64,000 bases of DNA. Origin: Murinocardiopsis flavida (GTDB lineage Bacteria; Actinomycetota; Actinomycetes; Streptosporangiales; Streptosporangiaceae). Shown here piece after piece: positions 8,133 to 24,459 of the stretch (position 1 is the first letter of the stretch; the number at the start of each line of letters is the position of its first letter). A program made the position numbers and the translations under genes. The stretch covers positions 1-64,000 of the forward strand of contig NZ_PYGA01000008.1 of assembly GCF_003014485.1 (NCBI RefSeq), in the 5' to 3' direction. The notes beneath the pieces are model-generated. The model did not search any database and had not been told where the DNA came from. It worked only from the letters and a program-made list of their open reading frames with translations.

Positions 8133-8154
8133 TAGACTCACAGGCTGTGAGTCT
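8133..8154 (+). promoter_or_regulatory. ychF -10 box and perfect 21-bp palindrome over the start codon
   Basis: TAGACT (8133-8138) lies 8 nt before the GTG, so a leaderless mRNA is predicted. Bases 8134-8143 (agactcacag) and 8145-8154 (ctgtgagtct) are exact inverted repeats around a single g, covering the -10 box, the inferred start point and the start codon. This could be an operator or a hairpin masking initiation. Confidence 0.55.
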
Positions 8155-9241
8155 GTCTATCGGAATCGTCGGACTGCCCAATGTCGGCAAGTCCACGCTG
8201 TTCAACGCCCTGACCAAGAACGACGCTCTGGCCGCGAACTACCCGTTCGCCACCATCGAGCCCAACGTCGGCGTCGTGGGGGTGCCCGACCCCCGCCTCG
8301 CCGCGCTCGCCGAGATCCACGGTTCCGCCAAGGTGCTGCCCGCCACCGTGACCTTCGTCGACATCGCGGGGATCGTGCGCGGCGCGTCCGAGGGCGAGGG
8401 GCTCGGCAACCAGTTCCTCGCCAACATCCGCGAGACCGACGCCATCTGCCAGGTCATCCGCGCCTTCGAGGACGCCGACGTCACCCACGTCGACGGCGAC
8501 GTGGAGCCCTCGCGCGACATCGAGACCATCAACACCGAACTGATCCTGGCCGACCTCCAGACCCTGGAGAAGGCGGTGCCGCGGCTCGCCAAGGACGCCA
8601 GGATCAACGCCAAGGACAAGGACGCCAAGGCGCGCGCCGCGGCGGCCGAGGCCGCCCAGGAGGTCCTGAACTCCGGGCGGCCGCTGTCCACCGGCGGCCC
8701 CGCGGCGGGGATCGACCTCGCGCTGCTCCGCGAACTGAACCTCATGACGGTGAAGCCGTTCCTCTACGTCTTCAACCTCGACACCGACGAGCTCGGCGAC
8801 GCCGCGCTGCGCGCCAAGCTCGCCGATCTGGTCGCGCCGGCCGAGGCCGTGTTCCTCGACGCCAAGATCGAGGCGGAGCTCGCCGAACTCGACGACGGCG
8901 AGGCGATGGAGCTGCTGGAGTCCCTGGGCCAGAGCGAGTCGGGGCTCAGCCAGCTCGCCAGGGTCGGCTTCGCGACCCTCGGCCTCCAGACCTACCTCAC
9001 GGCCGGCCCCAAGGAGTCGCGGGCGTGGACCATCCCGAAGGGCGCCACGGCGCCCGAGGCCGCCGGGGTCATCCACACCGACTTCCAGCGGGGGTTCATC
9101 AAGGCCGAGGTCGTCTCGTACGACGACCTGGTGGCAGCGGGCACCATGCAGGCGGCCAAGGCCGCGGGCAAGGTGCGCATCGAGGGCAAGGACTACGTCA
9201 TGCACGACGGGGACGTCGTGGAGTTCCGGTTCAACGTGTAA
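8147..9241 (+). CDS. ychF: Redox-regulated ATPase YchF (Obg family)
   Basis: Universally conserved Obg-related P-loop protein that prefers ATP and binds ribosomes; linked to translation and oxidative stress control. The 364-aa product has G1 GLPNVGKST (residues 8-16), G2/G3 with [12 protein letters not shown] and [20 protein letters not shown], the YchF coiled-coil insertion (about 130-200), the NLDTDEL segment in place of a canonical NKxD motif, and the C-terminal TGS domain ([14 protein letters not shown] to VVEFRFNV). The GTG start gives the exact family N-terminus (SLSIGIVGL). An upstream in-frame extension is rejected because it lacks homology-like sequence and because of the -10 box at 8133. 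Confidence 0.96.
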
Positions 9242-9472
9242 TCCATCATGGATTCGCCACACTCGACTGTCCCCATGGCAAGAGGACAGTTTCCGGATAA
9301 CCAGATCAACCCGCTTGACCTCGCCAAATCCCGCCGTTTGGGAGTGAATTACCCGGTCATGGGGCTTTGGGGGCATCGGGCACCGGGTAAGAGCAGCAGG
9401 TCGGGAAGAAACACGTTCGTGCAATGACCGCGTACATCCTGCTTAATGCCGCACCATAGGGATGGGGTAGAC

Positions 9473-9532
9473 ATGCGTCGCAGGGACGCGGTCGCCCGCG
9501 ATGGGCGTGCTCGGGTGTTGATGGAGGCGTAA
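9473..9532 (+). CDS. Candidate 19-aa leader ORF coupled to the TcpC-like gene
   Basis: The frame begins ATG CGT CGC AGG GAC and ends TAATG, sharing its last base with the ATG of the next gene. The peptide is Arg-rich (MRRRDAVARDGRARVLMEA). A gatgggg stretch upstream is a weak ribosome site. It could provide translational coupling rather than a functional peptide. The rest of 9242-9472 holds only short inverted repeats (for example actgtcc 9266-9272 with ggacagt 9284-9290). Confidence 0.3.
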   Translation: MRRRDAVARDGRARVLMEA

Positions 9533-10512
9533 TGGCTCGCAAGTCGACCGCGCGGCGCGGCGGTGTCTCGGATGAGGCGACCACCGCACCGGAGGCGGCC
9601 GATCACCACGAGGCCGAACCGGTGGGCCCCCGACCCCGGCGACAGCCCCGCTCCGGAGCGGGCGGACGGTGGTGGGTGTGGCTCGGCCGCGCCGTGCTCT
9701 GGGCGTTCATCATCGTGGTGCTGTTCAACGGCATATGGCTGCCGTTCCGGTCGTCCTTCGCCGAGCCGTCCGCCGGGGGCCCCGCTCCCGCCGACAAGCC
9801 GGAGTTCCCCGAGACCGCCGCGGCGGCGTTCGCGCTGCGGTTCGGCGAGGCCTACCTGAATCCCAAGGAGGGCCAGAAGCGCGACGAAGCCCTCGCGCAG
9901 TTCCTGCCCGAGGGCCGAGGCTCCAGCCTCGACCTCGCCGGAACCGGCCTGACCGGCAAGAACATCGAGGTGTTCGGTGTCGACGCCAAGGACGCCAACA
10001 ACGCCGTCGTCACCCTCAGCGCCGACGTCAACAGCAAGCCCATGAGCCTCGACGTCCCGGTCTACGCCGCGGACGGCGGCGGCTCCCTCGTCCTCTCGGG
10101 CGAGCCGGCGCTGCTCGCGGCGCCCGCAAAGGCCGAACTCCCCGACGGCGAGGACATGCGCACCGACGCCGATGCGCGCGCCACGCTGGAGCCGTTCCTC
10201 GAAGGGTTCTTCGAGGCGTACGCCCAGACCCCCGAGCACCTCGGCCGCTACTTCGCAGAGGGCGCGCAGATCGCCTCCCTCCCCAAGGACGCAGTGCGCT
10301 TCGGCGAGCTGCGCGACGTCGTCGTCCCCGAGGCGCCCGCCTCCGGCGACGACGTCCGCGAGGTCCGCGCCACCGTGGTCTGGACCCTGCCCGGCGACAA
10401 TGGGGCCGCCCCCGCCCAGCTCACCCAGAGCTACCTGGTGACCGTCGAGCAGACGGGCGGCGACTGGTCGGTGCGCGACCTTCGAGGGGCCCCCAACTCG
10501 TTCGGCACATGA
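9532..10512 (+). CDS. Conjugal transfer protein TcpC-like (VirB8-like), membrane anchored
   Basis: The 326-aa product has a disordered cytoplasmic N-terminus of about 45 residues, one membrane helix (GRAVLWAFIIVVLFNGIW) and an extracytoplasmic region of two NTF2-like domains (about 85-200 and 215-326). This is the layout of TcpC/VirB8 scaffold proteins of Gram-positive type IV secretion systems. ggagg sits 4-8 nt before the ATG. It is the first large gene of the T4SS-like operon and precedes a TcpD-like and a TcpE-like gene, the same order as in the tcp locus of pCW3 (known), which supports the call. Expected role: structural scaffold of the membrane channel. Confidence 0.8.
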   Translation: MARKSTARRGGVSDEATTAPEAADHHEAEPVGPRPRRQPRSGAGGRWWVWLGRAVLWAFIIVVLFNGIWLPFRSSFAEPSAGGPAPADKPEFPETAAAAFALRFGEAYLNPKEGQKRDEALAQFLPEGRGSSLDLAGTGLTGKNIEVFGVDAKDANNAVVTLSADVNSKPMSLDVPVYAADGGGSLVLSGEPALLAAPAKAELPDGEDMRTDADARATLEPFLEGFFEAYAQTPEHLGRYFAEGAQIASLPKDAVRFGELRDVVVPEAPASGDDVREVRATVVWTLPGDNGAAPAQLTQSYLVTVEQTGGDWSVRDLRGAPNSFGT

Positions 10513-10564
10513 TGACCGGGAGCACCCACCGCGACCCGGCCCGAGCAAGGAGACGTGAAGGACC

Positions 10565-10603
10565 ATGCAGTTCAGACCTGAGCACCGGGAAGGCGGTGGC
10601 TGA
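10565..10603 (+). CDS. Candidate 12-aa mini-ORF upstream of the TcpD-like gene
   Basis: The peptide MQFRPEHREGGG follows a good ribosome site (gaagga) and its TGA abuts the next ATG. An alternative overlapping frame starts at 10509 as ATGA on the previous stop, codes 36 aa and ends at 10619 inside the next gene. One of the two could couple translation across the 91-nt gap; neither is proven. Confidence 0.25.
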   Translation: MQFRPEHREGGG

Positions 10604-10900
10604 ATGCTCCCCCTGCTGAACGACGCCGCCGACGCCGCCACCGCGGTCGTCCTCGCCACATCGGAGGACGCCCCCAACACGGAGGGCCTCGCCGAATGGC
10701 TGCGGGGCTTCTTCGGCCCGCTGTTCCTGGTGATCGTCTCGATCGTCGCGATCTTCTTCCTGTTCACCAGGGAGATCACCAGGTTCGCGCAGTTCATCAT
10801 CCTGGCGATCTTCATCGGGATCGTGTTCTACGTGCCCGGCATCATCGAGACCATCGCCGTCGCCATCGCCCGTGCGATGGGTGTGGAGACCCCCGAGTAG
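10604..10900 (+). CDS. TcpD-like small membrane protein
   Basis: The 98-aa product has an extracytoplasmic-looking acidic N-terminus of about 35 residues, then two hydrophobic helices (FFGPLFLVIVSIVAIFFLF and FAQFIILAIFIGIVFYVPGI) separated by a short basic loop TREITR. This size and topology fit the TcpD family of Gram-positive conjugation channels, and the position between TcpC- and TcpE-like genes fits too. The stop is followed by a 36-nt gap containing the strong aggagg site of the next gene. Confidence 0.7.
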   Translation: MLPLLNDAADAATAVVLATSEDAPNTEGLAEWLRGFFGPLFLVIVSIVAIFFLFTREITRFAQFIILAIFIGIVFYVPGIIETIAVAIARAMGVETPE

Positions 10901-10936
10901 CGCGAACCGAGTGCCGAGTTAGGAGGGTCGTACAGC

Positions 10937-13900
10937 GTGGACCTGCCCACGTACACCAAGATCTGGCGTATCGAGAAGCGGCTGTACAAGCTGTACGACT
11001 TCCGGCTGCCCATGCCGCTGCCCCTCGTCACGTTCAGCGTGTGGCTGGGCGTGACCGTGGTGTGGATGCTCCTCATGAGCCTGCTCGGGGTGCCTTTCGC
11101 GACACCGTGGCACGTCCTGTGGATCGTCCCGCCCATGGTCATCGCGTTCTTCGCGACCCGGCCCGTCGTCGAGGGCAAGCGGCTCACCGAACTCGTCTTC
11201 TCCCAGGGCCGCTACCTCGCCGAGGCCCGCGTCTACACGCGCCTCACACCCGAACGCGAACCCCGGGTGATCCTCGTGGGCGTCCGGGTGTGGCACCGCG
11301 ACCCCGCGGCGGGGCCGCTGCCGCTCACCGCCACCGCGCAGAAGCAGCAGTCCCGCGCGGCGAAGGCCGCCGACCGCGAGCGCAAGCGCGCCCTGCGTCC
11401 GGCGAAGGCGCGCACGGCACTCGCGTCCCCGCCCTCGGCGCCGGAACCCGCACCCACCCGTTCCGCACCGGCCCGGTCCGAACGCGACACCGACCGGCCC
11501 GGCCTGCGGGCGGCGCCCCGCGCGGCGCTCAATTACCTCGGTTTCGGCCTGCCCAAGACCGCCAAGCAGTCCACACCCGCATCGGGCACCCCCGCCGCCG
11601 AACGCCGGGAGCTCGGTACGGCCAAGCGCCGCGAGCACGCGCCCAGCAGGCTGAGCTGGGGGCCCGAGCGCGAGCACGCGCGCGGCGGCAACGGCGCCGA
11701 GGCCGGGGCCGCGCGCGGCACCGAGACCGCCGAGGACGCCGACACCGGCAGCGGGGAGTGGCTGACCTCCCTGCGGACCTCCTCCGGCGAGACCCCGTGG
11801 CCCCTGGCGTCCAAGCACTCCCACGAGCACTCCCACGAGCACGCGGCCGCCGCTCCGCCCGCAGTCGAGAGCAAGGCCGCGCGGCGCCGCGCCGAGGAGA
11901 TCATGGCGGCCCCCGACCCCGAGGCGGCGGGGTGGCGCGTGGGGGAGCGTGCGCCGACCGCGGAGCAGGAGCGGGTCGAGCACCGGCGCGCACTGGAGCA
12001 GGCGGCCGACACCGGAGCCCCCGAGGCGGCGCGGGAGGCGGCCCCGGACCCCGGCGCGGCCGAGGGCAGTAAGCGGCTGCGCGGCCGGTCGCAGGGCCGC
12101 GAGGTCGCCCGCCGGCTCGAACACGAACGCGAGGCGGTCCGCCACGAAGCCCCGCCGCCCCCGGCGAAGGCCCAGGGCCGGGGCGCTCCGGCGACCGAGG
12201 GCGACCCGCACGCCCGGTCGGCCGCGCCGCGCCGCCGCCCGCACGCCGCGCCCTGGAACCTGCCTGCGGCGGGGCCCGCCGCCGCACAATCCGGCGCGGT
12301 CGACACCGGCGCCGACGAGGCGGTCGCGGCACGGCCGGCCGGCGGCAGCGGACACGACGACCCCGAGATCACCGCGGCGTCGTTCGCAGCGGAGTCCCTG
12401 GCCTACGTCGACGGCCCGGCCGCCGCCGAGCCCACGGAGCCTGCGGGCGCAGCGGAGTCCAAGGGGACAGAGGAGCCCAAGGGGGCCGAGGAGGCCGCTG
12501 AGGGGGCTGCCGAGGAGGCCAAGGAGCCAGAGAGGGCCGGGGAGCCCGCGGAGACCGCCAGGGCCGGGGACGCCGAGGGGCCCGAGGGGATCGGGGAGTC
12601 CGAGAGGGCCGAGGAGTCCAAGGGAGGGGAGCCAAAGGGAGCCGAAGGGGCCGAAGGGGCCGCGCCCGCAGTGCCTACGGCCGAACACCACCCCGACGAC
12701 GCGAAACCGGCACTCGAACTCGACCACGGCACTGGTGAGCACGAGAGCTTCAGCGACTCCGGCGGCCCCGACTCCCCGGTGGTCCGGCGGCCGACTTTGG
12801 CCGAGATCGAGGCCGCCGAGCAGGCCGCGTTCGCCGCCCGCCGTCCCCGGGCCGCCCGCCCGGGACAGCCCGGGGTAGAGGAGCCCGCATCGGACGCTGC
12901 GGCGGCCGGTGCAGTGGCCGCCGCGTCGGCCCACGAGGCTGCTGCGGTGCCGAACGCCGCCGAGGTGCCGGGTGACCGCGGTGACGGCCCCGCCGCGCCC
13001 CAGGAGGCGGCTGAGAGCCGCACAGTGCCCACCGCCGACGCTCCGGTTCGGCCCGCCGCCGATGACAGCGAGACGGCCGCCGACAGCGAAGCGGCCCCGC
13101 CCGTCCCGGCAGCGGCGGAGGGCGAGGACGCACTCGGCGACGCCGCGACGACGGAGCCGGAGCAGGCCGCGGCAGAGCCGACAGAGGCGACCGCGGAAAC
13201 GGGCACGGAGCCGAGCGCAGAGTCGGGCACCGACACAGGTGGCGACCTCCTCGCGGCCCCTGCCGCCGACCCGGACGGTGCGGCGGATGCGGCGCAGGCG
13301 TTGGACGCCGAGGCGGCCGACCCCGGCGCGGAGGACGCCGACGAGTCGGCGGCGTCCGGTCCCGCCGCTCCCGAGGTGGCCGCGCCGATCGCCCCCGCCG
13401 CCTCCACTGCCGCCGCGCCGATCGTGCCCGCTGTCCCCGCCGTCGCCGCGCCGATCGCCCCCGCTGTCCCGGCGCCCCCCGACCCGGTCGTCCCCGCTGC
13501 TGCCACCGAGCAGCCCGACGCGGCCGGCGCCGCCGATGGCACGTCCGACGACGCGCCCGCCGCCCCCGCGGCCGCCGCGGACGTCGATACGCAGCCCCAC
13601 CCCGCTCCCACCGGGCCGCCGCGTTCGAACCGGCTGTCGCGGAGCATGCGGTCCAACGGGCCCGCCACACCGGGCGAGCCGGCGAAGGCCAAGCGCGCGC
13701 CGACCCACGCCGAACGTCCCGGCGGCGCCCCCGCGCCGAAGCGCGACACCGCCCCGCCGTCCCGGCCCGTGCGGCGCACCCGGCCGGTCGAGGTCGAGGC
13801 GGGCGACGACAGCGTCTTCACCCGGGTTGCGCAGAACGCGCGGCGCCTCGGGCAGTTGTTCACCCCGGCGGGCGGGGTGCCCGCGCCGAAGGACGACACC

Positions 13901-14965
13901 GAGAAGCCCGCCCCGGCCGCAAAGCCCGACCTGCAACTCGACCACGGCACCGGCGAGCACGACGCCCTCACGGCGACCCCGGAGCGGCGGCCCGACCGCC
14001 CGGCGCGGGCCGCGACGCCAGCCCCGGCCCGCCCCGTTCCGGAGCCGGCCGACGAGCCCGCCGCGCCCCCCGACAGCGGGGCCACCCGCGGCTGGCGCCG
14101 CCTCGCCCGTGTGGTCACCGGCGGCAACGCGTCCGCCGCCGCCAAGACGGACGTCCCCGAAGCCGACATCCGGCGGCTGCGCACCGAGTTCACCGGAACG
14201 CGCCGGATCATCGTGCTGGGCTGCACAGGCGGAGCGGGGCAGAGCATGACAGCGCTGATGCTCGGCCACACCCTCGCCGCCCACCGCGACCAGCGGGTCG
14301 TCGCCGTCGACGTCAACCCCGGCGGCGCCGGGCTGTCGCGGCGCATCCGCACCGAGACGACCGAGACTCTCACCTCGCTGTTCGCCAACGCCGAGCGCAT
14401 CCAGGGGTACGCGGGGATGCGCGGGTACACGTCGCAGTCGCCCAGCGGGCTCGAAGTGGTCACCACCCTGGACGATCCGTACGTGCAGACCCTCGACGAC
14501 CGCGACTACGTGGGGCTCGCGCAGCTGCTGGAGCGGCACTACGAGATCACCCTGCTCGACCCGGCGGCGCCCGGTGTCGCCCGGGCGCTGCCCATCGCCG
14601 ACGCGCTCGTCCTCGTGGCCCCCGCGAACGCCGACGCGGCGCGGGCGGTCGCCATGACCTTCGAGTGGCTCGACGGGCACGGGTACGCGAACCTGCGGGC
14701 GAAGTCCGTTGTCGTGGTGAACGGGGTGAGCCGCCGCAGCCTCGCCGACGTCGACGCGGCGGAGCAGGTCGCCCGGGGCCGCTGCCGGGCGATCGCCCGG
14801 GTGCCGTGGGACGACCACCTCGCATCGGCGCGCGCGGTGATCGACGTCAGCGCGCTGCGCCCCACCACCCGCCGGGCCCATGCCGCCCTCGGCGGGGTAC
14901 TGGCCGGCGGATTCGCGGCAGGCCCGACCCCGGGAACCCGGGTGACATCGGAGGCCCGCCGATGA
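10937..14965 (+). CDS. TcpE-like membrane domain fused to a MinD/ParA-like ATPase by a ~950-aa disordered linker
   Basis: This 1342-aa protein is a three-part fusion. Residues 1-125 are a TcpE-like domain with two membrane helices (PLVTFSVWLGVTVVWMLLMS and PWHVLWIVPPMVIAFFA) and a basic cytoplasmic follow-on. About 126-1075 is low-complexity Ala/Glu/Pro-rich sequence with EPKGAEEA-like and API(V/A)PAVPA repeats. From about 1085 a SIMIBI-class ATPase domain appears: RIIVLGCTGGAGQSMTALML, VVAVDVNPGGAGLSRRI, ITLLDPAAPGVAR, LVLVAPANADAARAV. The P-loop reads TGGAGQS, so both lysines of the deviant Walker A motif (KGGxGKT) are absent; nucleotide hydrolysis is doubtful. GTG start with aggagg 11 nt upstream. 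A KPxLxLDHGTGEH motif occurs twice in the linker (near 12703 and 13921). It probably links the channel base to a cytoplasmic regulatory domain (inference). Confidence 0.8.
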   Translation: MDLPTYTKIWRIEKRLYKLYDFRLPMPLPLVTFSVWLGVTVVWMLLMSLLGVPFATPWHVLWIVPPMVIAFFATRPVVEGKRLTELVFSQGRYLAEARVYTRLTPEREPRVILVGVRVWHRDPAAGPLPLTATAQKQQSRAAKAADRERKRALRPAKARTALASPPSAPEPAPTRSAPARSERDTDRPGLRAAPRAALNYLGFGLPKTAKQSTPASGTPAAERRELGTAKRREHAPSRLSWGPEREHARGGNGAEAGAARGTETAEDADTGSGEWLTSLRTSSGETPWPLASKHSHEHSHEHAAAAPPAVESKAARRRAEEIMAAPDPEAAGWRVGERAPTAEQERVEHRRALEQAADTGAPEAAREAAPDPGAAEGSKRLRGRSQGREVARRLEHEREAVRHEAPPPPAKAQGRGAPATEGDPHARSAAPRRRPHAAPWNLPAAGPAAAQSGAVDTGADEAVAARPAGGSGHDDPEITAASFAAESLAYVDGPAAAEPTEPAGAAESKGTEEPKGAEEAAEGAAEEAKEPERAGEPAETARAGDAEGPEGIGESERAEESKGGEPKGAEGAEGAAPAVPTAEHHPDDAKPALELDHGTGEHESFSDSGGPDSPVVRRPTLAEIEAAEQAAFAARRPRAARPGQPGVEEPASDAAAAGAVAAASAHEAAAVPNAAEVPGDRGDGPAAPQEAAESRTVPTADAPVRPAADDSETAADSEAAPPVPAAAEGEDALGDAATTEPEQAAAEPTEATAETGTEPSAESGTDTGGDLLAAPAADPDGAADAAQALDAEAADPGAEDADESAASGPAAPEVAAPIAPAASTAAAPIVPAVPAVAAPIAPAVPAPPDPVVPAAATEQPDAAGAADGTSDDAPAAPAAAADVDTQPHPAPTGPPRSNRLSRSMRSNGPATPGEPAKAKRAPTHAERPGGAPAPKRDTAPPSRPVRRTRPVEVEAGDDSVFTRVAQNARRLGQLFTPAGGVPAPKDDTEKPAPAAKPDLQLDHGTGEHDALTATPERRPDRPARAATPAPARPVPEPADEPAAPPDSGATRGWRRLARVVTGGNASAAAKTDVPEADIRRLRTEFTGTRRIIVLGCTGGAGQSMTALMLGHTLAAHRDQRVVAVDVNPGGAGLSRRIRTETTETLTSLFANAERIQGYAGMRGYTSQSPSGLEVVTTLDDPYVQTLDDRDYVGLAQLLERHYEITLLDPAAPGVARALPIADALVLVAPANADAARAVAMTFEWLDGHGYANLRAKSVVVVNGVSRRSLADVDAAEQVARGRCRAIARVPWDDHLASARAVIDVSALRPTTRRAHAALGGVLAGGFAAGPTPGTRVTSEARR

Positions 14966-15048
14966 CCCGGCGCACCCGGACCCGTCCGCCGCCGACCACC
15001 GTCACGACGCACGCCACAACGACGCTCCAGCCGGAGGACACCCAATGA
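14962..15048 (+). CDS. Candidate 28-aa coupled mini-ORF between the fusion ATPase and VirB4 genes
   Basis: Both ends overlap neighbours as ATGA: its ATG shares bases with the previous stop, and its TGA overlaps the ATG of the next gene. It has its own ggagg at 14950 with a 7-nt spacer, and the next gene has ggagg at 15033, inside this frame. The peptide is basic then Thr/Pro-rich (MTRRTRTRPPPTTVTTHATT, ending LQPEDTQ). The exact stop-start coupling on both sides argues that it is translated. Whether the peptide itself matters is unknown. Confidence 0.5.
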   Translation: MTRRTRTRPPPTTVTTHATTTLQPEDTQ

Positions 15049-17717
15049 ACGGCACCACGGGGGCGAGCCGCCTCGCGGTCCGCTACTTCGACGACCGCGT
15101 CCTGCTCAGCGACACCGAAGCGTGGGCGTACTTCCGGCTGCCCACCATCAACTACGAGTTCTCCACGCCCGAGGACCGCGAGACCCTCGCCACCAACATC
15201 ACCATCGCGCTCGCCGCGATCAGGATGAACGACGCCGAAGTGCACCTGCGCGTCGCGCACCGCACCTACCCTGCCGCGGCGTGGGCGACCAAGCTCGACG
15301 ACACCTCCGACTCCGGGCCGGGCTGGTACGACTACCTCGACGAGATGTACCGCCATGTGTGGGCGAAGGACTTCTGGTCGAAGGAGATCTACCTGGGGGT
15401 GCGGCTGGGGCAGAGGGGGGTTCGCGCGCAGCTCACCGGCGGCGTCTTCGCCCAGCTCTTCACCGCCTACCAGCGCACAGAGCAGATCCTCGGCCTTGAG
15501 GACGACGCGATCGACCCCAAGGAGATCTCCCGCTGGACCGAGCAGGCCGAACGCCTCGGCCGCGCGCTCGCGGCGAGCGCGCTGCACGCCCGGCACGCGT
15601 CATCGACCCAGCTCGCTTGGCTCATCCGGCACGCGGTCACCGGCGCCATCGAGGAACCCCGCCGCTCCGCTGCGGGGCGGCGAACCTGGGGCAAGGGCGA
15701 GATCGAAGGGCTGGTCGAGGGCACCGTCCACAACGGTCGCTCGCTGCTGCGCCTGGAGCAGCCCGGCGGCGACAACTACGTCGCCTACCTGTCGTTCTCG
15801 CGGTTCCCCGACCTCATGCCGTTCCCCGACGGCGAGCCCTGGCTGCACTACGCCGACGCGCTCCCGTTCCCCGTCGAGGTGTCCCTGCGCATGAAGCTGG
15901 TGCCGCCCGCCAAGGCCAGCAAGGACGTCGGACGCAAGCTCGCGCACGCCCGCGACATGGACGCGCACATCCGCGAGGCCGGGGTGGAGGCCCCGCTGGA
16001 CCTCGCCGAGCAGATCGACGCGGCCCGGCTGCTGGAGCACGGCATCACCAAGGAGCGGCTGCCGTTCGTGTACGGCTGGCACCGGCTCATGGTGTCGGCG
16101 CACACCGAGGAGCTGCTCGTGCAGCGGGTCGAAGCGGTCGTGGAGCACTACCGCGACATCGGCATCGACATCGTCAACTCCACCGGCGACCAGTTCTCCC
16201 TGTTCTGCGAGTCGCTGCCCGGCGACCGCATCCGCCTCAACGCCTACGTGCAGCGCCAACCGCTGCGCACCATCGCCGGCGGCATGCCCGTCGCAACGGT
16301 CGACCTGGGCGACCGCAGCGACTCCTCCGCATCGGGGTGGATCGGCCCCTACATCGGCGAGACCCTGGGGCGGGCGCGGTCCATCGTCCACTTCGACCCG
16401 ATGGTGGCGGCCGCCCGCAACCGGCCCACCGCCATCGCCATCACCGGCGAACCCGGCGGCGGGAAGACAACGCTGGCGCTGCTGCTCATCTACCAGCTCG
16501 CGCTGCGCGGGGTGACCGTCGCAGCCATCGACCCCAAGGGCGACGCCGAATCCCTGGTGCGGCTGCTGCAACGGCGCGGCCGCAAGGCGCGCATCATGTC
16601 CATGGCGTCGGCCGAACCGGGCCTCCTCGACCCGTTCGCGTTCGGCGACGACCTCGCCACCAAGAAGACCATGGCGACCGAAACCCTGCGGCTGCTCCTG
16701 CCCCGCATGAGCGAGGAACGCGAATCCGCCATGATCCAGGCGGTGGCGGCCGTCGCCAACCAGCCGCGGCCCAGCCTCGACAAGGTCGTCGCCTACCTGG
16801 AGTCGTCGCACGACCCGGCGTCCAGGAACCTGGGGGCCGTGCTGCGGTCCATGTCGGAGATGCGGCTCGCCGGGCTGTGCTTCGACCCCCAAGGCGAAGC
16901 GCAGATCGACACCGAGAGCTGGACCACGGTGTTCACCCTCGGCGGGCTGACCCTGCCCGACTCCACCATCCAGCGCGAGGACTACAGCTACGAGCAGCGG
17001 CTCAGTGTGGCGCTGCTGTACCTGGTCAGCCAGTTCGCCCGGCGGCTGATGAACGGCCTCGACCGGCACCTGCCCAAGGCCATCTTCCTCGACGAGGCGT
17101 GGGCCATCACCTCCACACCGGAAGGCGCGAAACTCGTCCCGGAGGTGTCGCGCATGGGGCGCTCGCGCAACACCGCGCTGATCCTCGTCAGCCAGAACGC
17201 CGGCGACCTGCTGAACGAGCAGGTCACCAACTGCCTGTCGAGCGTGTTCGCGTTCCGGTCGTCGGAGCGGGTCGAGGTCGACAGCGTGATGGCACTCCTC
17301 GGCGTCGAGGCGTCCGAAGAGCACGGGGCGGCGCTGCGCAACCTCGGCAACGGCGAGTGCATCTTCCGCGACCTCGACGGCAGGGCCGGCCGGATCGCGG
17401 TGGACCTCGTCTCCGAAGAACTCCTGGCCTGGCTCGACACCAACCCCACACGGCAGCGTCCCGACGACGCCGAGCACGGCGACCACGGCGGGCACCGCGA
17501 CCACGCGGACGACGACCCGCACGGAGGCGACCCGCACGGAGGCGACCCGCACGGAGGCGTCCCACCGGAAGCGTCCGGCGGCGCACTGGTGGGGACCGGA
17601 AGCGGCGGCGGCGCCGCATCCAGACCGGCCGGCTCGGGCGGTGCCCCAGCAGGGGGGCGCCGAACCGCCCGCGAACCGCACGACACCCGGGGACCAGGTC
17701 AGGAGCTGCACGGATGA
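15045..17717 (+). CDS. VirB4-like conjugation ATPase
   Basis: Hexameric motor ATPase of type IV secretion-like systems. The 890-aa product has an N-terminal domain of about 460 residues and a FtsK/HerA-type motor core: Walker A GEPGGGKTTLALLL (about residue 470), AAIDPKGDAESLV, Walker B KAIFLDEAWAI (about 678) and the sensor-like ALILVSQNAGDLLNEQ. The C-terminal 100 residues are disordered and rich in His, Asp and Gly, with three perfect 15-bp repeats encoding DPHGG. The ATG overlaps the mini-ORF stop, and the stop overlaps the next start (ATGA), so translation is coupled. It resembles the ATP/GTP-binding protein of the Streptomyces cmdABCDEF cluster (from memory). Confidence 0.88.
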   Translation: MNGTTGASRLAVRYFDDRVLLSDTEAWAYFRLPTINYEFSTPEDRETLATNITIALAAIRMNDAEVHLRVAHRTYPAAAWATKLDDTSDSGPGWYDYLDEMYRHVWAKDFWSKEIYLGVRLGQRGVRAQLTGGVFAQLFTAYQRTEQILGLEDDAIDPKEISRWTEQAERLGRALAASALHARHASSTQLAWLIRHAVTGAIEEPRRSAAGRRTWGKGEIEGLVEGTVHNGRSLLRLEQPGGDNYVAYLSFSRFPDLMPFPDGEPWLHYADALPFPVEVSLRMKLVPPAKASKDVGRKLAHARDMDAHIREAGVEAPLDLAEQIDAARLLEHGITKERLPFVYGWHRLMVSAHTEELLVQRVEAVVEHYRDIGIDIVNSTGDQFSLFCESLPGDRIRLNAYVQRQPLRTIAGGMPVATVDLGDRSDSSASGWIGPYIGETLGRARSIVHFDPMVAAARNRPTAIAITGEPGGGKTTLALLLIYQLALRGVTVAAIDPKGDAESLVRLLQRRGRKARIMSMASAEPGLLDPFAFGDDLATKKTMATETLRLLLPRMSEERESAMIQAVAAVANQPRPSLDKVVAYLESSHDPASRNLGAVLRSMSEMRLAGLCFDPQGEAQIDTESWTTVFTLGGLTLPDSTIQREDYSYEQRLSVALLYLVSQFARRLMNGLDRHLPKAIFLDEAWAITSTPEGAKLVPEVSRMGRSRNTALILVSQNAGDLLNEQVTNCLSSVFAFRSSERVEVDSVMALLGVEASEEHGAALRNLGNGECIFRDLDGRAGRIAVDLVSEELLAWLDTNPTRQRPDDAEHGDHGGHRDHADDDPHGGDPHGGDPHGGVPPEASGGALVGTGSGGGAASRPAGSGGAPAGGRRTAREPHDTRGPGQELHG
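17514..17558 (+). repeat. Three perfect 15-bp in-frame repeats (DPHGG)
   Basis: The unit gacccgcacggaggc is repeated three times inside the VirB4 tail, each copy encoding Asp-Pro-His-Gly-Gly. The flanking codons continue the His/Asp-rich pattern. Confidence 0.9.
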
Positions 17718-20149
17718 CCAGACACCGACTGGCCGACACCGTTGAGTCCCCTGAGCGGCCTGAGCCGCCTGAGCCACCGGCCCCGCCCCCGCGGCGGCCG
17801 AACACCCTGTCCCGGCGCCTGCGGCGCGGGGTGCTCCTCGCGGTGATGATGCTGGGCTTCCTGCTCGTCCCGATGGGATCCAGCTACGCGGCCACCGTCC
17901 CCGGCTGCGAGGGCGAACCGGCACCCCTCCCCGAGGCTGCGGGCAGCGGCGCCGACGGGCTGCTGGTGCCACCGCAGTCGGCCGCCTCGACCGCGGCATC
18001 GCCCGACAACCTGCCGCCCGATTCGAGCCTTTACGGGCAGTACGGGACCTCCGGGCAGCAATGGCACGTCATCCGGGAGTCGTGCGTCGACAAGCTGGGA
18101 ACAAGCGCCGTAGCGACCCTGAGCAACACGGCGTGGGACCTCTCGAAGACCATCAACCAGTCGACCATCACGGTCTACCAGGCGGCGACGTCCGACGGGC
18201 TCCTCGACAATTTCAACCGCCTCGTCGAGAACGTGATCAACGAGCTCCGCGGGGGGATCTGGCAGCCACTCCTGCCGACGGTGGTCATCCTCGGCGCGAT
18301 CTGGCTCGGCTGGTTCGGCCTGGTCCGAAAGCGCGTCACCCTCACGGTCGAAAGCTCCGTGTGGATGGTGCTCGCCATGACGCTCGGCATCTGGATCCTC
18401 GTCAATCCCGGGCAGATCCTCGGCTACGCGAGCACTGCTGTGAATTCCGGTGGCCAACTGGTCAATTCCGCCGTCTCGAAGATCTCCGTCCCGGGTGTTT
18501 CGGACAACTGCCCGACCGGGGCTCCCGGGATCGAGAAGGCGGCGTGGGAGAGCGACAGCGAGTTCGCCGTCAGGAAGAACTCCCAGATGCTGTGGTCCGG
18601 GCTCGTGTGCCGACCGTGGATGGCAGGGGAGTTCGGGACCGGCCCCGTGGCCGACATCGCCGCCGAGCAGCACGGCGTCGCCCTGCTGGGTGCCCAGGGC
18701 GTGAGCAGGGTGGAACTCCAAGAGGTCGCGGACGGCGACGTCGACTCGGAGGACCTGTACAAGCAGAAGCAGGACGACTACGAAGAGATCGCGGCCGACA
18801 TCGAGAACACCTATCCAGAGGTCTATCCGCTGTTCGACGGATCGCAGCAGGGGAGCCGGCTGGGCGTCGCCACGCTCGCCCTCTTCGCCTCGGTGTTCGC
18901 GGGCGGGCTGATCCTGGCGGGGGCGGTCGCTCTGATCGTTCTCAAGATCGGTTTCCTGCTGCTGCTGCTCCTGTCGCCCATATTCCTGCTGATCGGCATC
19001 CATCCGGGGTATGGGCGGACGGTGCTCCTGCGGTGGCTGGAGATGATGATCGGCCTGCTGCTCAAGCAGATCTTCGTCGTCCTCCTCATCTCCCTCTTGG
19101 TGATGTGCTACGGGCTCGTCATGGCGTCCGGTCTCGGCTGGGGGCTGCAAATGATCCTGCTGGCGCTCTTCACCGTTGCGTTGTTCATCTACCGGAAGCC
19201 GTTCGCTCACCTCTTCGCGTCCGTGAATGCGAACACCTTCACGTCGCGCATGGTCAATGACGCTATGACCAGCAATGTTCTCGGGAAGAGCGCAAACGTG
19301 CTGCCCCCGGTCGCGTATATGCGCGCGCAGCGCTGGGGGCTGCGGCGCGCCCCGCAGCTCGCGACAGCGGCCGGTGGAGTGCCCGCCGGCGGTGGTGGAG
19401 TCGACCCCGGTGAAACTGCGCCGGGGATGTCGGGAGCGGCCGCGCCCGACACCGGCGAGCACGAGGGCGCATCGGTCCGGGGCGAGACGGGCCGGGTGCG
19501 CGGCAGGGCGGGCTACGGCCCGGTGCAGTCGAAGACCGCGCCGCCGCCGTTGCGACTCGGGCAGGCGGCGTCGGCCGCCCCGGAGCGGCCGCAAGGCGCC
19601 CCGACCCCGCGCAGTTCCGCGCAGGCGCCACGGCTCGGCGAGTCGATGGCGGCGAGTGGTGGACTCGGCGGCCGGTCCGCTGCCGCCCCGGCCCGGGGAG
19701 CGATACCGCCGCGGCCTGCTGGGGGGTACACCGGCGTGGGGGACACCGGGTGGTCGTCGGTGTTCGGGGCCACGGGCCGCGGCCCGCAACCCGCATCGGG
19801 CGGGGGCGGCAATTCCTCCGGGGGCGGTCCTGCCGACGAATCGCGGCCCGCGCCGAGTACCGGCCGGGGCATCTTCAATGGGCGGTCGGAGACGCCACCG
19901 CAGGGGAACACCATCCCGAAGGGCTCCCGATGGGGCGGCGCACCTCAGCGCCGCGACAGGCCCGCACCTCCGCCGCGCGCACCCCGACCCGCGCCGACAG
20001 GCCGCATGGAGAAGGCGGGGAACTGGTTCAAATCCGAAGGCGGCAGCCGCAAGGACCAGCCGATGAGCCCCTTCTGGACCGAGAACGGCGGCCAGCAGCG
20101 CCGGAACGGCAGGCGCGACATCCCATTCTGGCTCAGAGACGAGGACTGA
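17714..20149 (+). CDS. VirB6/TrbL-like polytopic membrane protein
   Basis: The 811-aa product has a cytoplasmic N-terminus, a first helix or signal (GVLLAVMMLGFLLVPMG), an extracytoplasmic segment of about 130 residues with paired cysteines, two helices (LPTVVILGAIWLGWFGL, VWMVLAMTLGIWILVNP), a loop of about 160 residues, then a cluster of four helices (GVATLALFASVFAGGLILAG to LLALFTVALFIYR). A Pro/Gly/Arg-rich disordered tail of about 260 residues follows. This is the topology of VirB6/TrbL channel subunits in Gram-positive systems. The ATG overlaps the VirB4 stop and follows aggag. The tail contains TGEHE, also present in the linker motif of the fusion ATPase. Role: inner membrane channel (inference). 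Confidence 0.78.
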   Translation: MTRHRLADTVESPERPEPPEPPAPPPRRPNTLSRRLRRGVLLAVMMLGFLLVPMGSSYAATVPGCEGEPAPLPEAAGSGADGLLVPPQSAASTAASPDNLPPDSSLYGQYGTSGQQWHVIRESCVDKLGTSAVATLSNTAWDLSKTINQSTITVYQAATSDGLLDNFNRLVENVINELRGGIWQPLLPTVVILGAIWLGWFGLVRKRVTLTVESSVWMVLAMTLGIWILVNPGQILGYASTAVNSGGQLVNSAVSKISVPGVSDNCPTGAPGIEKAAWESDSEFAVRKNSQMLWSGLVCRPWMAGEFGTGPVADIAAEQHGVALLGAQGVSRVELQEVADGDVDSEDLYKQKQDDYEEIAADIENTYPEVYPLFDGSQQGSRLGVATLALFASVFAGGLILAGAVALIVLKIGFLLLLLLSPIFLLIGIHPGYGRTVLLRWLEMMIGLLLKQIFVVLLISLLVMCYGLVMASGLGWGLQMILLALFTVALFIYRKPFAHLFASVNANTFTSRMVNDAMTSNVLGKSANVLPPVAYMRAQRWGLRRAPQLATAAGGVPAGGGGVDPGETAPGMSGAAAPDTGEHEGASVRGETGRVRGRAGYGPVQSKTAPPPLRLGQAASAAPERPQGAPTPRSSAQAPRLGESMAASGGLGGRSAAAPARGAIPPRPAGGYTGVGDTGWSSVFGATGRGPQPASGGGGNSSGGGPADESRPAPSTGRGIFNGRSETPPQGNTIPKGSRWGGAPQRRDRPAPPPRAPRPAPTGRMEKAGNWFKSEGGSRKDQPMSPFWTENGGQQRRNGRRDIPFWLRDED

Positions 20150-20224
20150 CCCCGAATTCCCGACCAGCACCCGCACCCTGTTCCACCGAGGCAGCACCTC
20201 CGATCAGAATAGGCACCCCCTGAC

Positions 20225-20860
20225 ATGCCAAAACCCCTCTCGGATACGGCCCAGCGACTGGTGTTCGGCACACTGGTCGTGGCGCTGGTCGCCTTCGGTA
20301 TCTATCTGAGCCTTGGGGGATTCAACGGCGGCGGCCCGGGGGATGGTGCCGGCCAGGATCGCGAGTCGGCGGGAGGCGGCGCGGGCGCGGCGTCGCCGAG
20401 TCCGATTCCCACGGCCGACACCGAGGACATGAAGGTGCTCGATTGGTTGCCGTTCGAGGAATCCGAACTGAAGTCGGCGGCTGCCGTCGCCCAGGAATTC
20501 GCGTCAGCATACGGAACCATCGACTACCAGACACCGAAAGAGGACTACCAGTCGAAACTGGAGTCGCTTGCCGCCAAGGACTACGCCAAGACCCTCGCCA
20601 GGAGCTCGGGAGCATCGGCGCTCTGGGGGGAGAAGGCGAAGGAGAAGACCGTCTCCGAGGGCCGGGCGGACGTCCGGTCCATTCGCAGCTTCGACGACAA
20701 GTCGGTCGTCTTCGTCGTGAAAGCGCAGTCCATAAGTGCGAGCGAAAGTGGAGAGACCGAGGAACTCGGCGATTTCGCGGTGACCGTCATCGACGAGGGC
20801 GGCCAGTGGAAGGTCTACGACTTCCAACCCGCTGATGCGGCGAATCTGGGAGATGGCTGA
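20225..20860 (+). CDS. Membrane-anchored protein with NTF2/VirB8-like extracytoplasmic domain
   Basis: The 211-aa product has one N-terminal membrane helix (LVFGTLVVALVAFGIYLSL), a Gly/Ser-rich linker of about 40 residues, and a folded C-terminal domain from about residue 70 (LKSAAAVAQEFASAYGTIDY to WKVYDFQPA) with the alternating helix and strand pattern of NTF2-like VirB8 domains. It differs from the first TcpC-like gene in having a single such domain. The ribosome site is weak. It is part of the same operon; its TGA gives a TGATG overlap with a nine-codon frame ending 10 nt before the next gene. No exact family was recognised. GC falls in this gene compared with those upstream. Confidence 0.7.
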   Translation: MPKPLSDTAQRLVFGTLVVALVAFGIYLSLGGFNGGGPGDGAGQDRESAGGGAGAASPSPIPTADTEDMKVLDWLPFEESELKSAAAVAQEFASAYGTIDYQTPKEDYQSKLESLAAKDYAKTLARSSGASALWGEKAKEKTVSEGRADVRSIRSFDDKSVVFVVKAQSISASESGETEELGDFAVTVIDEGGQWKVYDFQPADAANLGDG

Positions 20861-20889
20861 TGTGCGCTGACCTGTGCGGCATGGGTTGA
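20860..20889 (+). CDS. Candidate 9-aa mini-ORF
   Basis: ATG overlaps the previous stop as TGATG; the peptide is MCADLCGMG and ends 10 nt before the next ATG. The only support is the overlap geometry, which recurs across this operon. Confidence 0.2.
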   Translation: MCADLCGMG

Positions 20890-20899
20890 GGGGTGTTCA

Positions 20900-22060
20900 A
20901 TGATCCGCCGCTTCGCACGCCCCGAACCATCCGATTCGGGCTCGTGTGCCACCCGGCTGGCCATCGCGGTAGGACTCTTCATGGTGGCAGTTGTCGCGTT
21001 GGCGGTACTGATCGTGCCGATGGCGTCGATGAACCAGGGGATCGGCTCGCTTGCGGCCGGCGGCTTGAAGTGCACCTCGGACGAAGCGGCCGAACAGGCC
21101 GACACCAGTGGGTACGCCGAGGACTCGATTCCCGAGAACTACCTCAAGATCTACCGGAAGGTCGGCAAGGACAAGGGCATCCCTTGGAACGTGCTCGCGG
21201 GAGTCGGCCAGGTCGAGAGCAAGCACGGCCGGTGGGACGGCCCGGGAATCACCGAAAAGCATAATGACTGGGGCGCAGCTGGGCCGATGCAGTTTGGCGT
21301 GAAAGACGGATACCCGGCCGGAAACAGTTGGGGCGGCGATCCCGTCATGCCCGTCGACAAGCGGCCGGAAAAAGGGTACGGGCAGGATGGTAACAAGGAT
21401 GGGGTCGTGGACGTATACGACCCCGAGGATGCCATTCCCGCCTCCGCTGACTATCTGATCGCCCATGGCGCAAAGGATGATATGCGCAAGGCGATATTCG
21501 GTTATAACCATGCATGGTGGTATGTCGACGACGTTCTCGGGTGGGCGAAGAAGTACGCTGATGGCGATTTCTCGACGGGTACATCGATCGAGGTCGCTGT
21601 GAACTGCGAGATCGATAGCCAGGGAGAGAGGATCGGGAAGGCTCCCGACGATGCGACCCAGGCCGTAGTCGATTGGGCTTTGGAGCAGCGAGGGAAGCCG
21701 TATATCTGGGGCGGAACCGGGCCATCGGGCTTTGACTGCTCGGGACTGCTGATGAAGGCGTATTCAAGCATCGGCGTGACGATTCCCAGGGTCTCCCAGG
21801 ACCAGTGGAATTTCGGACCACGGGTGAAGAAGGGCGACGAACAGCCAGGTGACCTGGTCTTCTTTGACGTGCAGAGGGCGGGTGAACCTCCCGGCCCCGG
21901 TCACGTCGGCATGGTCGTCGGCGACGGTCTGATGGTAGAGGCGTGGTGTACCGACTGCGGACCGATTGCCACACGGAAGTACGACGATCCGAGCCGGTCC
22001 GCCATCATGGGATTCACGCGCCCACTGGAGGATGAGAGCGCCAAGGCGAGTCTTGACTGA
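20900..22060 (+). CDS. Bifunctional cell-wall hydrolase: SLT transglycosylase plus NlpC/P60 peptidase (VirB1-like)
   Basis: Predicted to open peptidoglycan for the secretion-like machine. The 386-aa product has one N-terminal membrane anchor (LAIAVGLFMVAVVALAVLIV), a soluble lytic transglycosylase-like domain (about 75-225) with the catalytic Glu in GVGQVESKHG, and a C-terminal NlpC/P60 domain (about 255-380) with catalytic Cys in GFDCSGLLMKAY and His in PGHVGMVVGDG. Two-domain SLT-NlpC/P60 hydrolases are standard parts of Gram-positive T4SS (CwlT/TcpG/Orf14 type). The stop shares a base with the next start (TGATG at 22058). Codon use is less GC-biased than upstream genes. Confidence 0.88.
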   Translation: MIRRFARPEPSDSGSCATRLAIAVGLFMVAVVALAVLIVPMASMNQGIGSLAAGGLKCTSDEAAEQADTSGYAEDSIPENYLKIYRKVGKDKGIPWNVLAGVGQVESKHGRWDGPGITEKHNDWGAAGPMQFGVKDGYPAGNSWGGDPVMPVDKRPEKGYGQDGNKDGVVDVYDPEDAIPASADYLIAHGAKDDMRKAIFGYNHAWWYVDDVLGWAKKYADGDFSTGTSIEVAVNCEIDSQGERIGKAPDDATQAVVDWALEQRGKPYIWGGTGPSGFDCSGLLMKAYSSIGVTIPRVSQDQWNFGPRVKKGDEQPGDLVFFDVQRAGEPPGPGHVGMVVGDGLMVEAWCTDCGPIATRKYDDPSRSAIMGFTRPLEDESAKASLD

Positions 22061-22839
22061 TGAGGAGCAGGATGGAGAATAGCGAAGAACGGGCTACGGA
22101 AAGACGCGGCCTGCATGGCAAAAGGGCGTTCTTCGTCGTTCTCGGTTCCGGGATTCTTGCCGCATTGCTGGTTTTCGGGGTGCTTGTTGGAATTGTTCGT
22201 ACCTTGGGGTCGGCCGTCGCCGGTCCTCCGGTTGCGGGGCAGGGCAGCAAGGGAGTCGCGCCAGAACGAGGGCCAGTCAAAGAGATGAAGGTCGGCGCAC
22301 TGGATCTTTGTCAAGCCCTAGAGCAAGAAGGTCTTCAAGGGGATCTGCCAGAGCGCAAGGATGACGGCAGCCACTACATTGACACGGCCTCTAGAGGCGG
22401 ACCTGACGAAGATTCCAACCGAACCGTGAGTGACCGGTGTGAATGGGTCATAGAACCCGAGTACAATCGGACCCTTACCGTGGAGTTGACGTACAAGGCA
22501 TTTGTTTCCGGCGGTGAAGAGGGTTCGATTGGTTCGCAGGCCGATCGGCATCTGCGTCAAGGAATTTCCAAGCTGGAATCAGAGTTTCCGGAAGGGTCGC
22601 GCCCGAGGGCCCTGGAGGGGTTCGGTGAGGAGTCGGCCTATATTTTTGGCGAAACATCGTCCGGGGAGCGAAAGTTCGTCGCTGCGGGTCGTGAGAAGAG
22701 CGGTGTTCTGTTCTTGAGCTTTGCAGAGATCAAGCAGAGTAAAATGGCCGACGATGAACTGAATAATGAACTAAAAGGGAAAGCCATGGGTGCGGAACCT
22801 CGGCTGTTCGAAAGATTTGACCGGCTGCTCCCGGATTAG
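22060..22839 (+). CDS. Membrane-anchored protein of unknown function, last gene of the T4SS-like operon
   Basis: The 259-aa product has a short charged N-terminus, one membrane helix (AFFVVLGSGILAALLVFGVLVGIV) and an extracytoplasmic domain with two cysteines (DLCQALEQEG and SDRCEWVIEP), a pattern seen in DUF3558-like secreted proteins of actinobacteria; that link is tentative. Either the ATG at 22060 (TGATG overlap) or the ATG at 22072 (preceded by gaggag) may be used. GC is clearly lower here and codon choice is relaxed (gaa, ttt, att), unlike the first genes of the operon, which suggests faster divergence or a separate origin. It converges on the kinase pair. Confidence 0.65.
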   Translation: MRSRMENSEERATERRGLHGKRAFFVVLGSGILAALLVFGVLVGIVRTLGSAVAGPPVAGQGSKGVAPERGPVKEMKVGALDLCQALEQEGLQGDLPERKDDGSHYIDTASRGGPDEDSNRTVSDRCEWVIEPEYNRTLTVELTYKAFVSGGEEGSIGSQADRHLRQGISKLESEFPEGSRPRALEGFGEESAYIFGETSSGERKFVAAGREKSGVLFLSFAEIKQSKMADDELNNELKGKAMGAEPRLFERFDRLLPD

Positions 22840-22908: not shown

Positions 22909-24459
22909 CTAGGTGCAGTCGTGGTAGTCGAGGGAGAAGTCACCTCCAACTTCGAAGCAGAAGCTGACTGGGGGGTTTCCCAGTTCTCCTTCCTTGTAGG
23001 ATCCTCCGGTGAAAGTGATCAGCCCGGACTCTTCGGTCGTCGGGTAGATCAGATCGAAGTTCCTGGTAGGGGAAAATCCTTCGGCGGTGAGGGGTTCCGG
23101 GTTCGACGGTGGGATGTGACCCCCTCCAATCTTCCGCAGGGTCAACTGGTCGGAATTGATCTGTGGCGAGGCGCTCCAGAATGCAACCTCCGCGGAAAAA
23201 CGGAGGCCGTCGTTCAGTTCTTCGACGGACTTGACGGTCACCGTGTAACCCGTTCGCTCGCCGGAGTTCGCCTCGATAGTGGGCAAACCCTTTTTTAGCT
23301 GGACCCGGGAGTAGTCGGAACCGTTGACCGCCTCGGCAACCGCTTCCGGTGGCAGCGATCGCGACGGCTCGGGAGCCGTTGACGTCGACGCATTGCGGCC
23401 GACTCCGCTGTTGCCCCCATTCTCTTTCGACCAAGGGGCCGTTCCAAGGGCTGTTGGAACTCCCAGGCCGCCGGCTGTCAGCAACGCGGCTGCGACGGGT
23501 GCACCGACCATGAGGAGTCGACGGTGTCGCGGCGGCGCCGGAGGGGCGGGTGGACTCGTCGGGAGTCCGCGCCAGTGCCGATCGAGCAGTTCCGCGAGCA
23601 GGGCCCCGCTCGGTTCCGAGTCGGCGCGGTCACCGGACCACAGCCTGTGTACCATCGGCAACAGGGCGTCGATTGCCGGTCGCTCTGGGGGGTTCTTCGC
23701 CATCGCGGCGGCAATGACCGCTGCCAACTGCTCCGGCACGCCGAGGAGGTCCGGTGGGTCCTCTATCGTCCGAAACGCCAGCACATTCGCGGCACCGAAG
23801 CCGAACGGGTTGCGGCCCGTTGCAGCGAATGCGATGAGTCCGCCCAACGCGAAGACGTCGGAGCGGCTCGTTGCCGGATGCCCTTCGTACTGTTCGGGAC
23901 TGATCCAACCAGGCGTGCCGACTACGCCGCCGGTCGCGGTTAGCCCGGTGTCCTCCGCGGCGCGCGCGATTCCGAAGTCGAGAACCTTGGGCCCGTCCGC
24001 TGAGAGGATGACGTTGCCGGGTTTGAGGTCGCGATGCGCGATTCCGGCGTCATGGATATCGAGCAGAGCCTCCGCGACTCCGGCCGCCAGCGCCAATAGC
24101 AGTCCGGGCGGAAGCGGGCCCGCCTCTTGGACGTGCCGTTGCAGCGTGGAGCCTGCGACGAACTCGGTCGCCAGCCAGGGCGTCGCGCCGTCGGGATCCG
24201 CGGAGATGAAGCTCGGAACGCTGGTACTGCGCACGCGTTGCAGAAGGTGGACTTCGCGTGCGAATCGCGCGCGGAACCCCGGTTCGGCCACGTGTTCGCC
24301 GTGGATCATCTTCACCGCGATGTAGCCGCCGGCACTTCCTCTGGCGGCGTAGACGGTACCCATACCGCCCGCCCCGATCCGCCCGACGAGACGGTGTGGG
24401 CCGAGGCGCTTGGGGTCCTCCGGAGTGAGAGCGGCCATGCGCACACGATCGGCGGTCAT
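22909..24459 (-). CDS. Receptor-like serine/threonine protein kinase (first of a tandem pair)
   Basis: The 516-aa product has an N-terminal Hanks kinase domain (about 18-270): glycine loop GRIGAGGMGTVY, catalytic Lys in IAVKMIHGEH, HRDLKPGN, DFGIAR, activation-loop TPGWISPEQY, so it should be active. A Pro-rich juxtamembrane linker, one membrane helix (LLMVGAPVAAALLTAGGLGV) and an extracellular domain of about 160 residues follow, with two late cysteines (SFCFEVGG and DYHDC). No PASTA repeats. The ATG immediately follows the TAG of the upstream kinase gene with ggag 4 nt before it, so the two are co-translated. Its kinase domain is closely similar to the upstream paralogue, whereas the sensor is diverged. 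Confidence 0.9.
   Translation of the reverse strand: MTADRVRMAALTPEDPKRLGPHRLVGRIGAGGMGTVYAARGSAGGYIAVKMIHGEHVAEPGFRARFAREVHLLQRVRSTSVPSFISADPDGATPWLATEFVAGSTLQRHVQEAGPLPPGLLLALAAGVAEALLDIHDAGIAHRDLKPGNVILSADGPKVLDFGIARAAEDTGLTATGGVVGTPGWISPEQYEGHPATSRSDVFALGGLIAFAATGRNPFGFGAANVLAFRTIEDPPDLLGVPEQLAAVIAAAMAKNPPERPAIDALLPMVHRLWSGDRADSEPSGALLAELLDRHWRGLPTSPPAPPAPPRHRRLLMVGAPVAAALLTAGGLGVPTALGTAPWSKENGGNSGVGRNASTSTAPEPSRSLPPEAVAEAVNGSDYSRVQLKKGLPTIEANSGERTGYTVTVKSVEELNDGLRFSAEVAFWSASPQINSDQLTLRKIGGGHIPPSNPEPLTAEGFSPTRNFDLIYPTTEESGLITFTGGSYKEGELGNPPVSFCFEVGGDFSLDYHDCT

Follow-up and report, generated by a model that had tools for sequence, protein, structure and literature searches.

Chromosomal type IV secretion systems (T4SSs) that lack a relaxase, known as MOBless T4SSs, have been suggested to export proteins (PMC3158045). 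In Streptomyces coelicolor, the chromosomal and co-transcribed genes cmdABCDEF (SCO4126-4131) encode a VirB4-like ATPase (CmdB) together with five membrane proteins, and cmd mutants are defective in sporulation and chromosome segregation (PMC2782261). Bordetella Ptl and Brucella VirB are T4SSs without a coupling protein, and Patescibacteria share a widespread, co-opted core T4SS of the monoderm MPF-FATA type, usually with a type IV coupling protein (T4CP) and mostly without detectable VirB8 (PMC12102498). Here, we analyzed a 64,000-nt stretch of Murinocardiopsis flavida DNA (contig NZ_PYGA01000008.1, positions 1-64,000, forward strand; hereafter the window), in which a one-strand run of eight coupled genes (9532-22839, +; intergenic gaps of -4 to 91 bp) includes a T4SS of the MPF-FA class (Tn916/ICEBs1/pCW3-type). 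The T4SS proper spans 9532-22060 in the order TcpC-TcpD-TcpE-VirB4-VirB6-VirB8'-SLT/NlpC, where VirB8' is a second VirB8-like protein. With high confidence, we read this locus as a domesticated, non-mobile T4SS, whose job is very probably some transport task other than moving DNA.

Sampling of 31 genera of the host's GTDB family recovered a single close ortholog of VirB4 in every one, with 74-91% identity. In a class-wide sample of 28 genomes, one close ortholog was present besides that of the window's own genome, again in the same family, and the best match among the others reached 30%. A species-level scan (one genome each for 84,980 species) returned 282 VirB4 relatives, the best 80 of which all belong to Nocardiopsaceae, Thermomonosporaceae and Streptosporangiaceae; a scan of viral contigs returned nothing. 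The original prediction had proposed a synteny survey, which revealed the order ispH-DUF-rmuC-ychF-[TcpC, TcpD, TcpE, VirB4, VirB6, NTF2, NlpC]-mutT-typA in these three families, with no relaxase in between. The predicted flanking gene ychF (8147..9241, +), a housekeeping gene, thereby marks a fixed chromosomal site, and the window also keeps mutT (at 37414) and typA (at 39149). VirB4 distances correlate with those of ychF (r=0.905; 0/2000 permutations as high), and pairwise comparisons of VirB4 give a ratio of non-synonymous to synonymous substitution rates (dN/dS) of 0.06-0.14, similar to that of ychF. Evolution is faster in the wall-facing parts, with dN/dS still <1. The T4SS is a core locus of Streptosporangiales, vertically inherited in one copy at a constant chromosomal site, and a chance origin of the gene set is excluded because it is conserved in many genomes. 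One PLSDB "plasmid" of Nonomuraea gerenzanensis (NZ_LT559118.1, 11.85 Mb) also contains the chromosomal T4SS, and this replicon is very probably the chromosome.

The genes that would process DNA for transfer are missing from this site. The original prediction had noted the absence of a relaxase, a coupling protein and att-like repeats, and this holds for the window and for 95 related loci (1.8 Mb), in which 14 relaxase, coupling-protein and integrase probes, derived from plasmids, from Bacillus modules and from an integrated conjugative element (ICE) of the host and including one integrase probe, gave 0 matches. A hidden relaxase or coupling protein nearby is ruled out by this search. Repeats in the flanks did not exceed chance, the longest shared word being 8 bp against a chance mean of 8.35. 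A relaxase or coupling protein adjoining the locus in relatives, or att sites around it, would have marked it as an integrated element; neither was found, and the synteny is fixed. None of the usual marks of an ICE (a relaxase with the T4SS, an integrase with att sites, a patchy and non-syntenic spread) was seen. The marks of an MPF-FA system are present, namely a VirB4/TcpF with intact Walker motifs and clustered TcpC/VirB8, TcpE, VirB6 and SLT/NlpC in conserved order, except for the coupling protein (TcpA/VirD4) that characterizes conjugative members. Like the MOBless T4SSs, the locus is a chromosomal cluster without relaxase.

The loss of relaxase, coupling protein and integrase would also be expected of a decaying ICE, left as a remnant without present function. 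Such a remnant is refuted by the selection data and the universality of the system, and we assign it next to no probability: all 31 genera keep the T4SS, VirB4 has the low dN/dS given above, no part is lost in the genomes with a split operon, and all catalytic residues are invariant. The latter include the VirB4 Walker A motif GEPGGGKTT and DEAW motif (alignment of 15 genera) and, in the wall hydrolase, the SLT Glu (54/54), the NlpC Cys (54/54) and the NlpC His (53/53). Selection has thus preserved every component of an energised trans-wall channel, and the components that would feed it DNA are gone.

Close relatives of the machine were found on two Nocardiopsis plasmids, NZ_CP099838 and NZ_CP080600, whose VirB4 proteins are 77% and 74% identical to that of the window. 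Both carry the same component set (TcpC, TcpD, TcpE, VirB6, NTF2-like and SLT genes in addition to VirB4) and differ from the window in that a MobF relaxase and a VirD4-type coupling protein sit elsewhere on the plasmid. Identity to the window is 78% for TcpD and 60-65% for TcpE, while VirB6 and the NTF2-like protein are diverged (~30%). For VirB4, TcpD and TcpE, the plasmid proteins have their closest counterparts on the chromosomes of Nocardiopsis and its kin (up to 81/87/73%), and in VirB4 trees the plasmids join the Nocardiopsis chromosomes (97 SH-like approximate likelihood ratio test; second tree 98/100). Approximately unbiased tests leave a chromosomal Nocardiopsaceae clade without the plasmids unrejected (p 0.26; concatenated p 0.42). 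Because the chromosomal synteny is fixed, the simpler reading would be that the plasmids captured the machine from a chromosome. Although each has a full T4SS with MobF and the VirD4-type coupling protein, MOB-suite types NZ_CP099838.1 and NZ_CP080600.1 as "non-mobilizable".

Since its nearest plasmid relatives carry a MobF relaxase and VirD4, the machine is a conjugation machine by descent. The same relatives raise the alternative that the chromosomal system moves DNA in trans, either in chromosomal exchange between hyphae or as help for plasmids and ICEs, with an unlinked FtsK/TcpA/VirD4 and relaxase. This type of channel can pair with DNA processing, as near relatives of its TcpC, TcpD, TcpE and VirB4 do so on plasmids with MobF and VirD4, and noncanonical chromosomal DNA transfer is listed for actinomycetes in a review (PMC12857230). 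Among 16 genomes carrying the T4SS, however, no MobF relaxase was found in 7 and no plasmid-type VirD4 T4CP in 9, the window's own genome being among both groups, and no Replic_Relax gene in 10. Where MobF, T4CP or Replic_Relax genes were found, they lay on contigs other than that of the T4SS. A positive control comes from two further, distant VirB4 genes in the window's genome, on contigs C12 and C24, each with a Replic_Relax gene ~3 kb away. We consider DNA transfer in trans quite unlikely. The VirB4 region on contig C24 resembles an ICE of the PrgI type, and contig C15 of this genome carries a third Replic_Relax gene.

A feature specific to the chromosomal form is its tcpE gene (10937..14965, +; PF12648 E 1e-20, CbiA 1.7e-4). 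It encodes TcpE, a ~920 aa disordered, A/P/E-rich linker and a C-terminal MinD/ParA-fold domain (14129..14962, +; pLDDT 86), all in one frame; across 12 loci, the linker varies from 392 to 1704 aa. Nearly all loci examined have the P-loop LGCTGGAGQ[TS] in the fused domain, one has GCTGSAGQ, and residues 31-38 (G31-Q38) are invariant in 22/22 aligned sequences. Compared with the KGGxGKT lock of ParA/MinD proteins, both lysines are replaced in the chromosomal form, by T and Q. On both Nocardiopsis plasmids, TcpE is unfused, and a gene of its own encodes the MinD/ParA homolog, which has an intact KGGVGKTT. The loss of both lysines while the remaining residues are conserved suggests that the domain, which we call pseudo-MinD, is structural or regulatory and has lost ATP cycling. 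The proposed TcpE-ATPase fusion is therefore confirmed as a fusion and revised as to the ATPase.

The other predicted components were likewise all recovered on one strand, with assignments as follows. The start of tcpC, which encodes a membrane-anchored VirB8-like protein (9532..10512, +; PF12642 E 7.4e-13), was moved to 9532 from the operon start first placed at 9473; the start sequence ATGGCTCGC is common to 29/57 loci. TcpC identity across the family is 33-57%, with its position unchanged. Upstream of tcpC, a conserved motif, GGGATGGGGTAGACA, lies at 9445-9478 and at equivalent positions, its words occurring in 24-29/57 loci, and is possibly a promoter or leader. The tcpD-like gene (10604..10900, +) encodes a 98 aa membrane protein with two predicted hydrophobic segments, 60-86% identical in relatives and homologous to the protein at the equivalent position of Bacillus/Niallia/Shouchella plasmid modules (hhalign prob 97.5%, E 4.9e-12). 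The VirB4-type ATPase (TcpF/ConE-like; 15045..17717, +; PF12846 E 2.1e-64) has the pCW3-type transfer protein TcpF as its best NCBIfam match (9e-74). Its C-terminus (17475-17717) is a His/Asp/Gly-rich repeat tail that is unconserved among aligned relatives. It is followed by a VirB6/TrbL-type polytopic membrane protein (17714..20149, +; PF04610 E 4.8e-8; CD3337/EF1877 mobilome membrane protein E 4.3e-28).

The second anchored NTF2-like protein of the original prediction (20225..20860, +; 211 aa, single-pass) indeed adopts a VirB8 fold in an AlphaFold model (pLDDT 82), with IcmL-like, CagV, TraM, DotI, VirB8 and PrgL as best PDB matches, and is homologous to its positional equivalent on Bacillus plasmids (hhalign prob 96.3, E 1.6e-9). 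Its profile also matches PDB 9r33 (OmamC; E 2.5e-6), which hints at a link between T4SS VirB8-like proteins and orphaned Mce-associated proteins. The T4SS proper ends with a VirB1/CwlT-type bifunctional wall hydrolase containing SLT and NlpC/P60 domains (20900..22060, +; PF00877 E 2.6e-21). The last anchored protein (22060..22839, +), which has no Pfam match or assigned family, is translationally coupled as proposed, but it is conserved only among near relatives (3/14 wider relatives) and is probably an accessory outside the machine. Two adjoining PknB-like Ser/Thr kinase genes (22909-24459 and 24460-26328, -) converge on the T4SS, and a kinase gene near the T4SS is also found in Streptomonospora and Nocardiopsis. 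Farther downstream, a TIR-domain protein (29902-31482, +; PF13676 E 4e-13) gives weak PADLOC matches to Thoeris ThsB and SAVED-TIR.

From these assignments, we infer how the machine might assemble and work. We read the system as derived from a conjugation module of Gram-positive bacteria (Tn916/ICEBs1/pCW3 type, MPF-FA) whose DNA-processing block, with relaxase and coupling protein, was lost. In the inner membrane, VirB6, TcpD and TcpE would form a translocon powered by VirB4. The channel would then cross the wall, lined by TcpC together with VirB8', at an opening made by the SLT/NlpC hydrolase. The disordered arm of TcpE with its lysine-less MinD end could serve as a cytoplasmic receptor that brings a protein substrate, or else a partner, to the channel. 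Judged from sequence, the work of the domesticated T4SS, leaving receptor detail aside, may well be protein translocation, which we propose tentatively; that the TcpE arm stands in the place of the coupling protein as receptor is more doubtful. Equally doubtful, if possible, is the full picture: an order-wide non-conjugative Gram-positive T4SS that belongs to core Streptosporangiales physiology, in which a TcpE-fused disordered arm with a pseudo-MinD receptor replaces the coupling protein of a dedicated protein-delivery or hyphal cell-cell machine.

In favor of protein translocation, MOBless T4SSs elsewhere have for the most part been suggested as protein exporters (PMC3158045). Several observations weigh against our main reading. 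The nearest plasmid relatives (VirB4 74-77%) accompany MobF and VirD4, and DNA may therefore be transferred with a borrowed coupling protein; the claim of a non-conjugative machine, which stands in that the system is stand-alone, chromosomal and non-mobile, is qualified to this extent. Most protein-exporting T4SSs keep their coupling protein. Finally, other genes interrupt the cluster in Nocardiopsis and leave it in three blocks, with all parts retained, which weakens a strict single-operon view.

In these Nocardiopsis chromosomes (loci L049-L074), a secreted GmrSD_C/HNH-like nuclease gene (e.g. L049:9134-9793) lies directly 5' of virB4, and two conserved genes of unknown function (one DUF6891) lie 3' of it. 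Helicobacter ComB is a T4SS without relaxase and coupling protein. This identical pattern of absences, together with the nuclease gene, would fit a DNA uptake (competence) machine like that of Helicobacter pylori. The nuclease gene is, however, restricted to the Nocardiopsis arrangement, and the co-occurrence with ComEC expected of a ComB-type system does not hold: ComEC (PF03772) was unmatched in 4/16 T4SS genomes (90-93% complete), all of one deep clade. A role in DNA uptake is very improbable. Two records named Glycomyces fuscus (L049) and Streptomonospora nanhaiensis (L054) group inside Nocardiopsis in VirB4 trees, show the Nocardiopsis-type split arrangement and are possibly misnamed.

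A further alternative to protein translocation is an envelope machine for hyphal differentiation, acting at the membrane and wall during aerial growth or sporulation without notable export. The host belongs to an order of mycelial, spore-forming bacteria. The cmd genes offer a precedent of a VirB4-like ATPase with sporulation and segregation phenotypes (PMC2782261). The relation to cmd put forward in the original prediction stands as a likeness of type, a chromosomal VirB4-like ATPase with membrane proteins, and was drawn from the published description; cmd and the SLP2-type plasmid transfer genes of Streptomyces are among the systems nearest in kind. The best full-length Streptomyces matches to the window VirB4, which lie on plasmids, share 25-28% identity. 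The wall hydrolase and the two VirB8-like proteins argue for a trans-wall channel, and motifs for WhiG, BldD, SigR and AdpA were unenriched upstream in 57 loci, which is weak evidence and no refutation. We regard a cmd-like role as unlikely, if somewhat less so than DNA transfer in trans.

Whatever its substrate, a conjugation-type machine without its DNA-moving parts is under strong selection and belongs to the core genome of a large, antibiotic-producing order. A complete Gram-positive T4SS free of DNA-transfer genes makes a non-conjugative job directly testable by genetics, and the plasmid machine with its relaxase and coupling protein provides a natural with/without pair for the roles of the coupling protein and of an active MinD. 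If the proposed reading is true, the TcpE-fused arm with pseudo-MinD would constitute a new architecture of a dedicated protein-delivery or hyphal cell-cell machine. In the literature, which was incompletely covered, we found no description of this locus in Streptosporangiales, of a fusion of TcpE with pseudo-MinD or of an MPF-FA system without T4CP that spans a whole order.

Compared with known systems, the locus has the same components and order as the Bacillus/Niallia/Shouchella plasmid modules (Tn916/ICEBs1/pCW3, MPF-FA). In these modules, the place directly upstream is taken by a DUF87 coupling-type ATPase gene and a replication-relaxation relaxase gene, whereas the window has ychF there; the TcpE-pseudo-MinD fusion has no counterpart in them and occurs only in the chromosomal Streptosporangiales form. 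In contrast to the Patescibacteria system, that of the window is MPF-FA, without T4CP, equipped with two VirB8-like proteins and fixed at one site order-wide. Bordetella Ptl, Brucella VirB and Helicobacter ComB are diderm systems with outer-membrane complexes and of different ancestry. With the MOBless T4SSs (PMC3158045), the locus shares its chromosomal location and the lack of a relaxase. The MOBless kind of T4SS is known; new here is its Streptosporangiales chromosomal variant with a TcpE-pseudo-MinD fusion.

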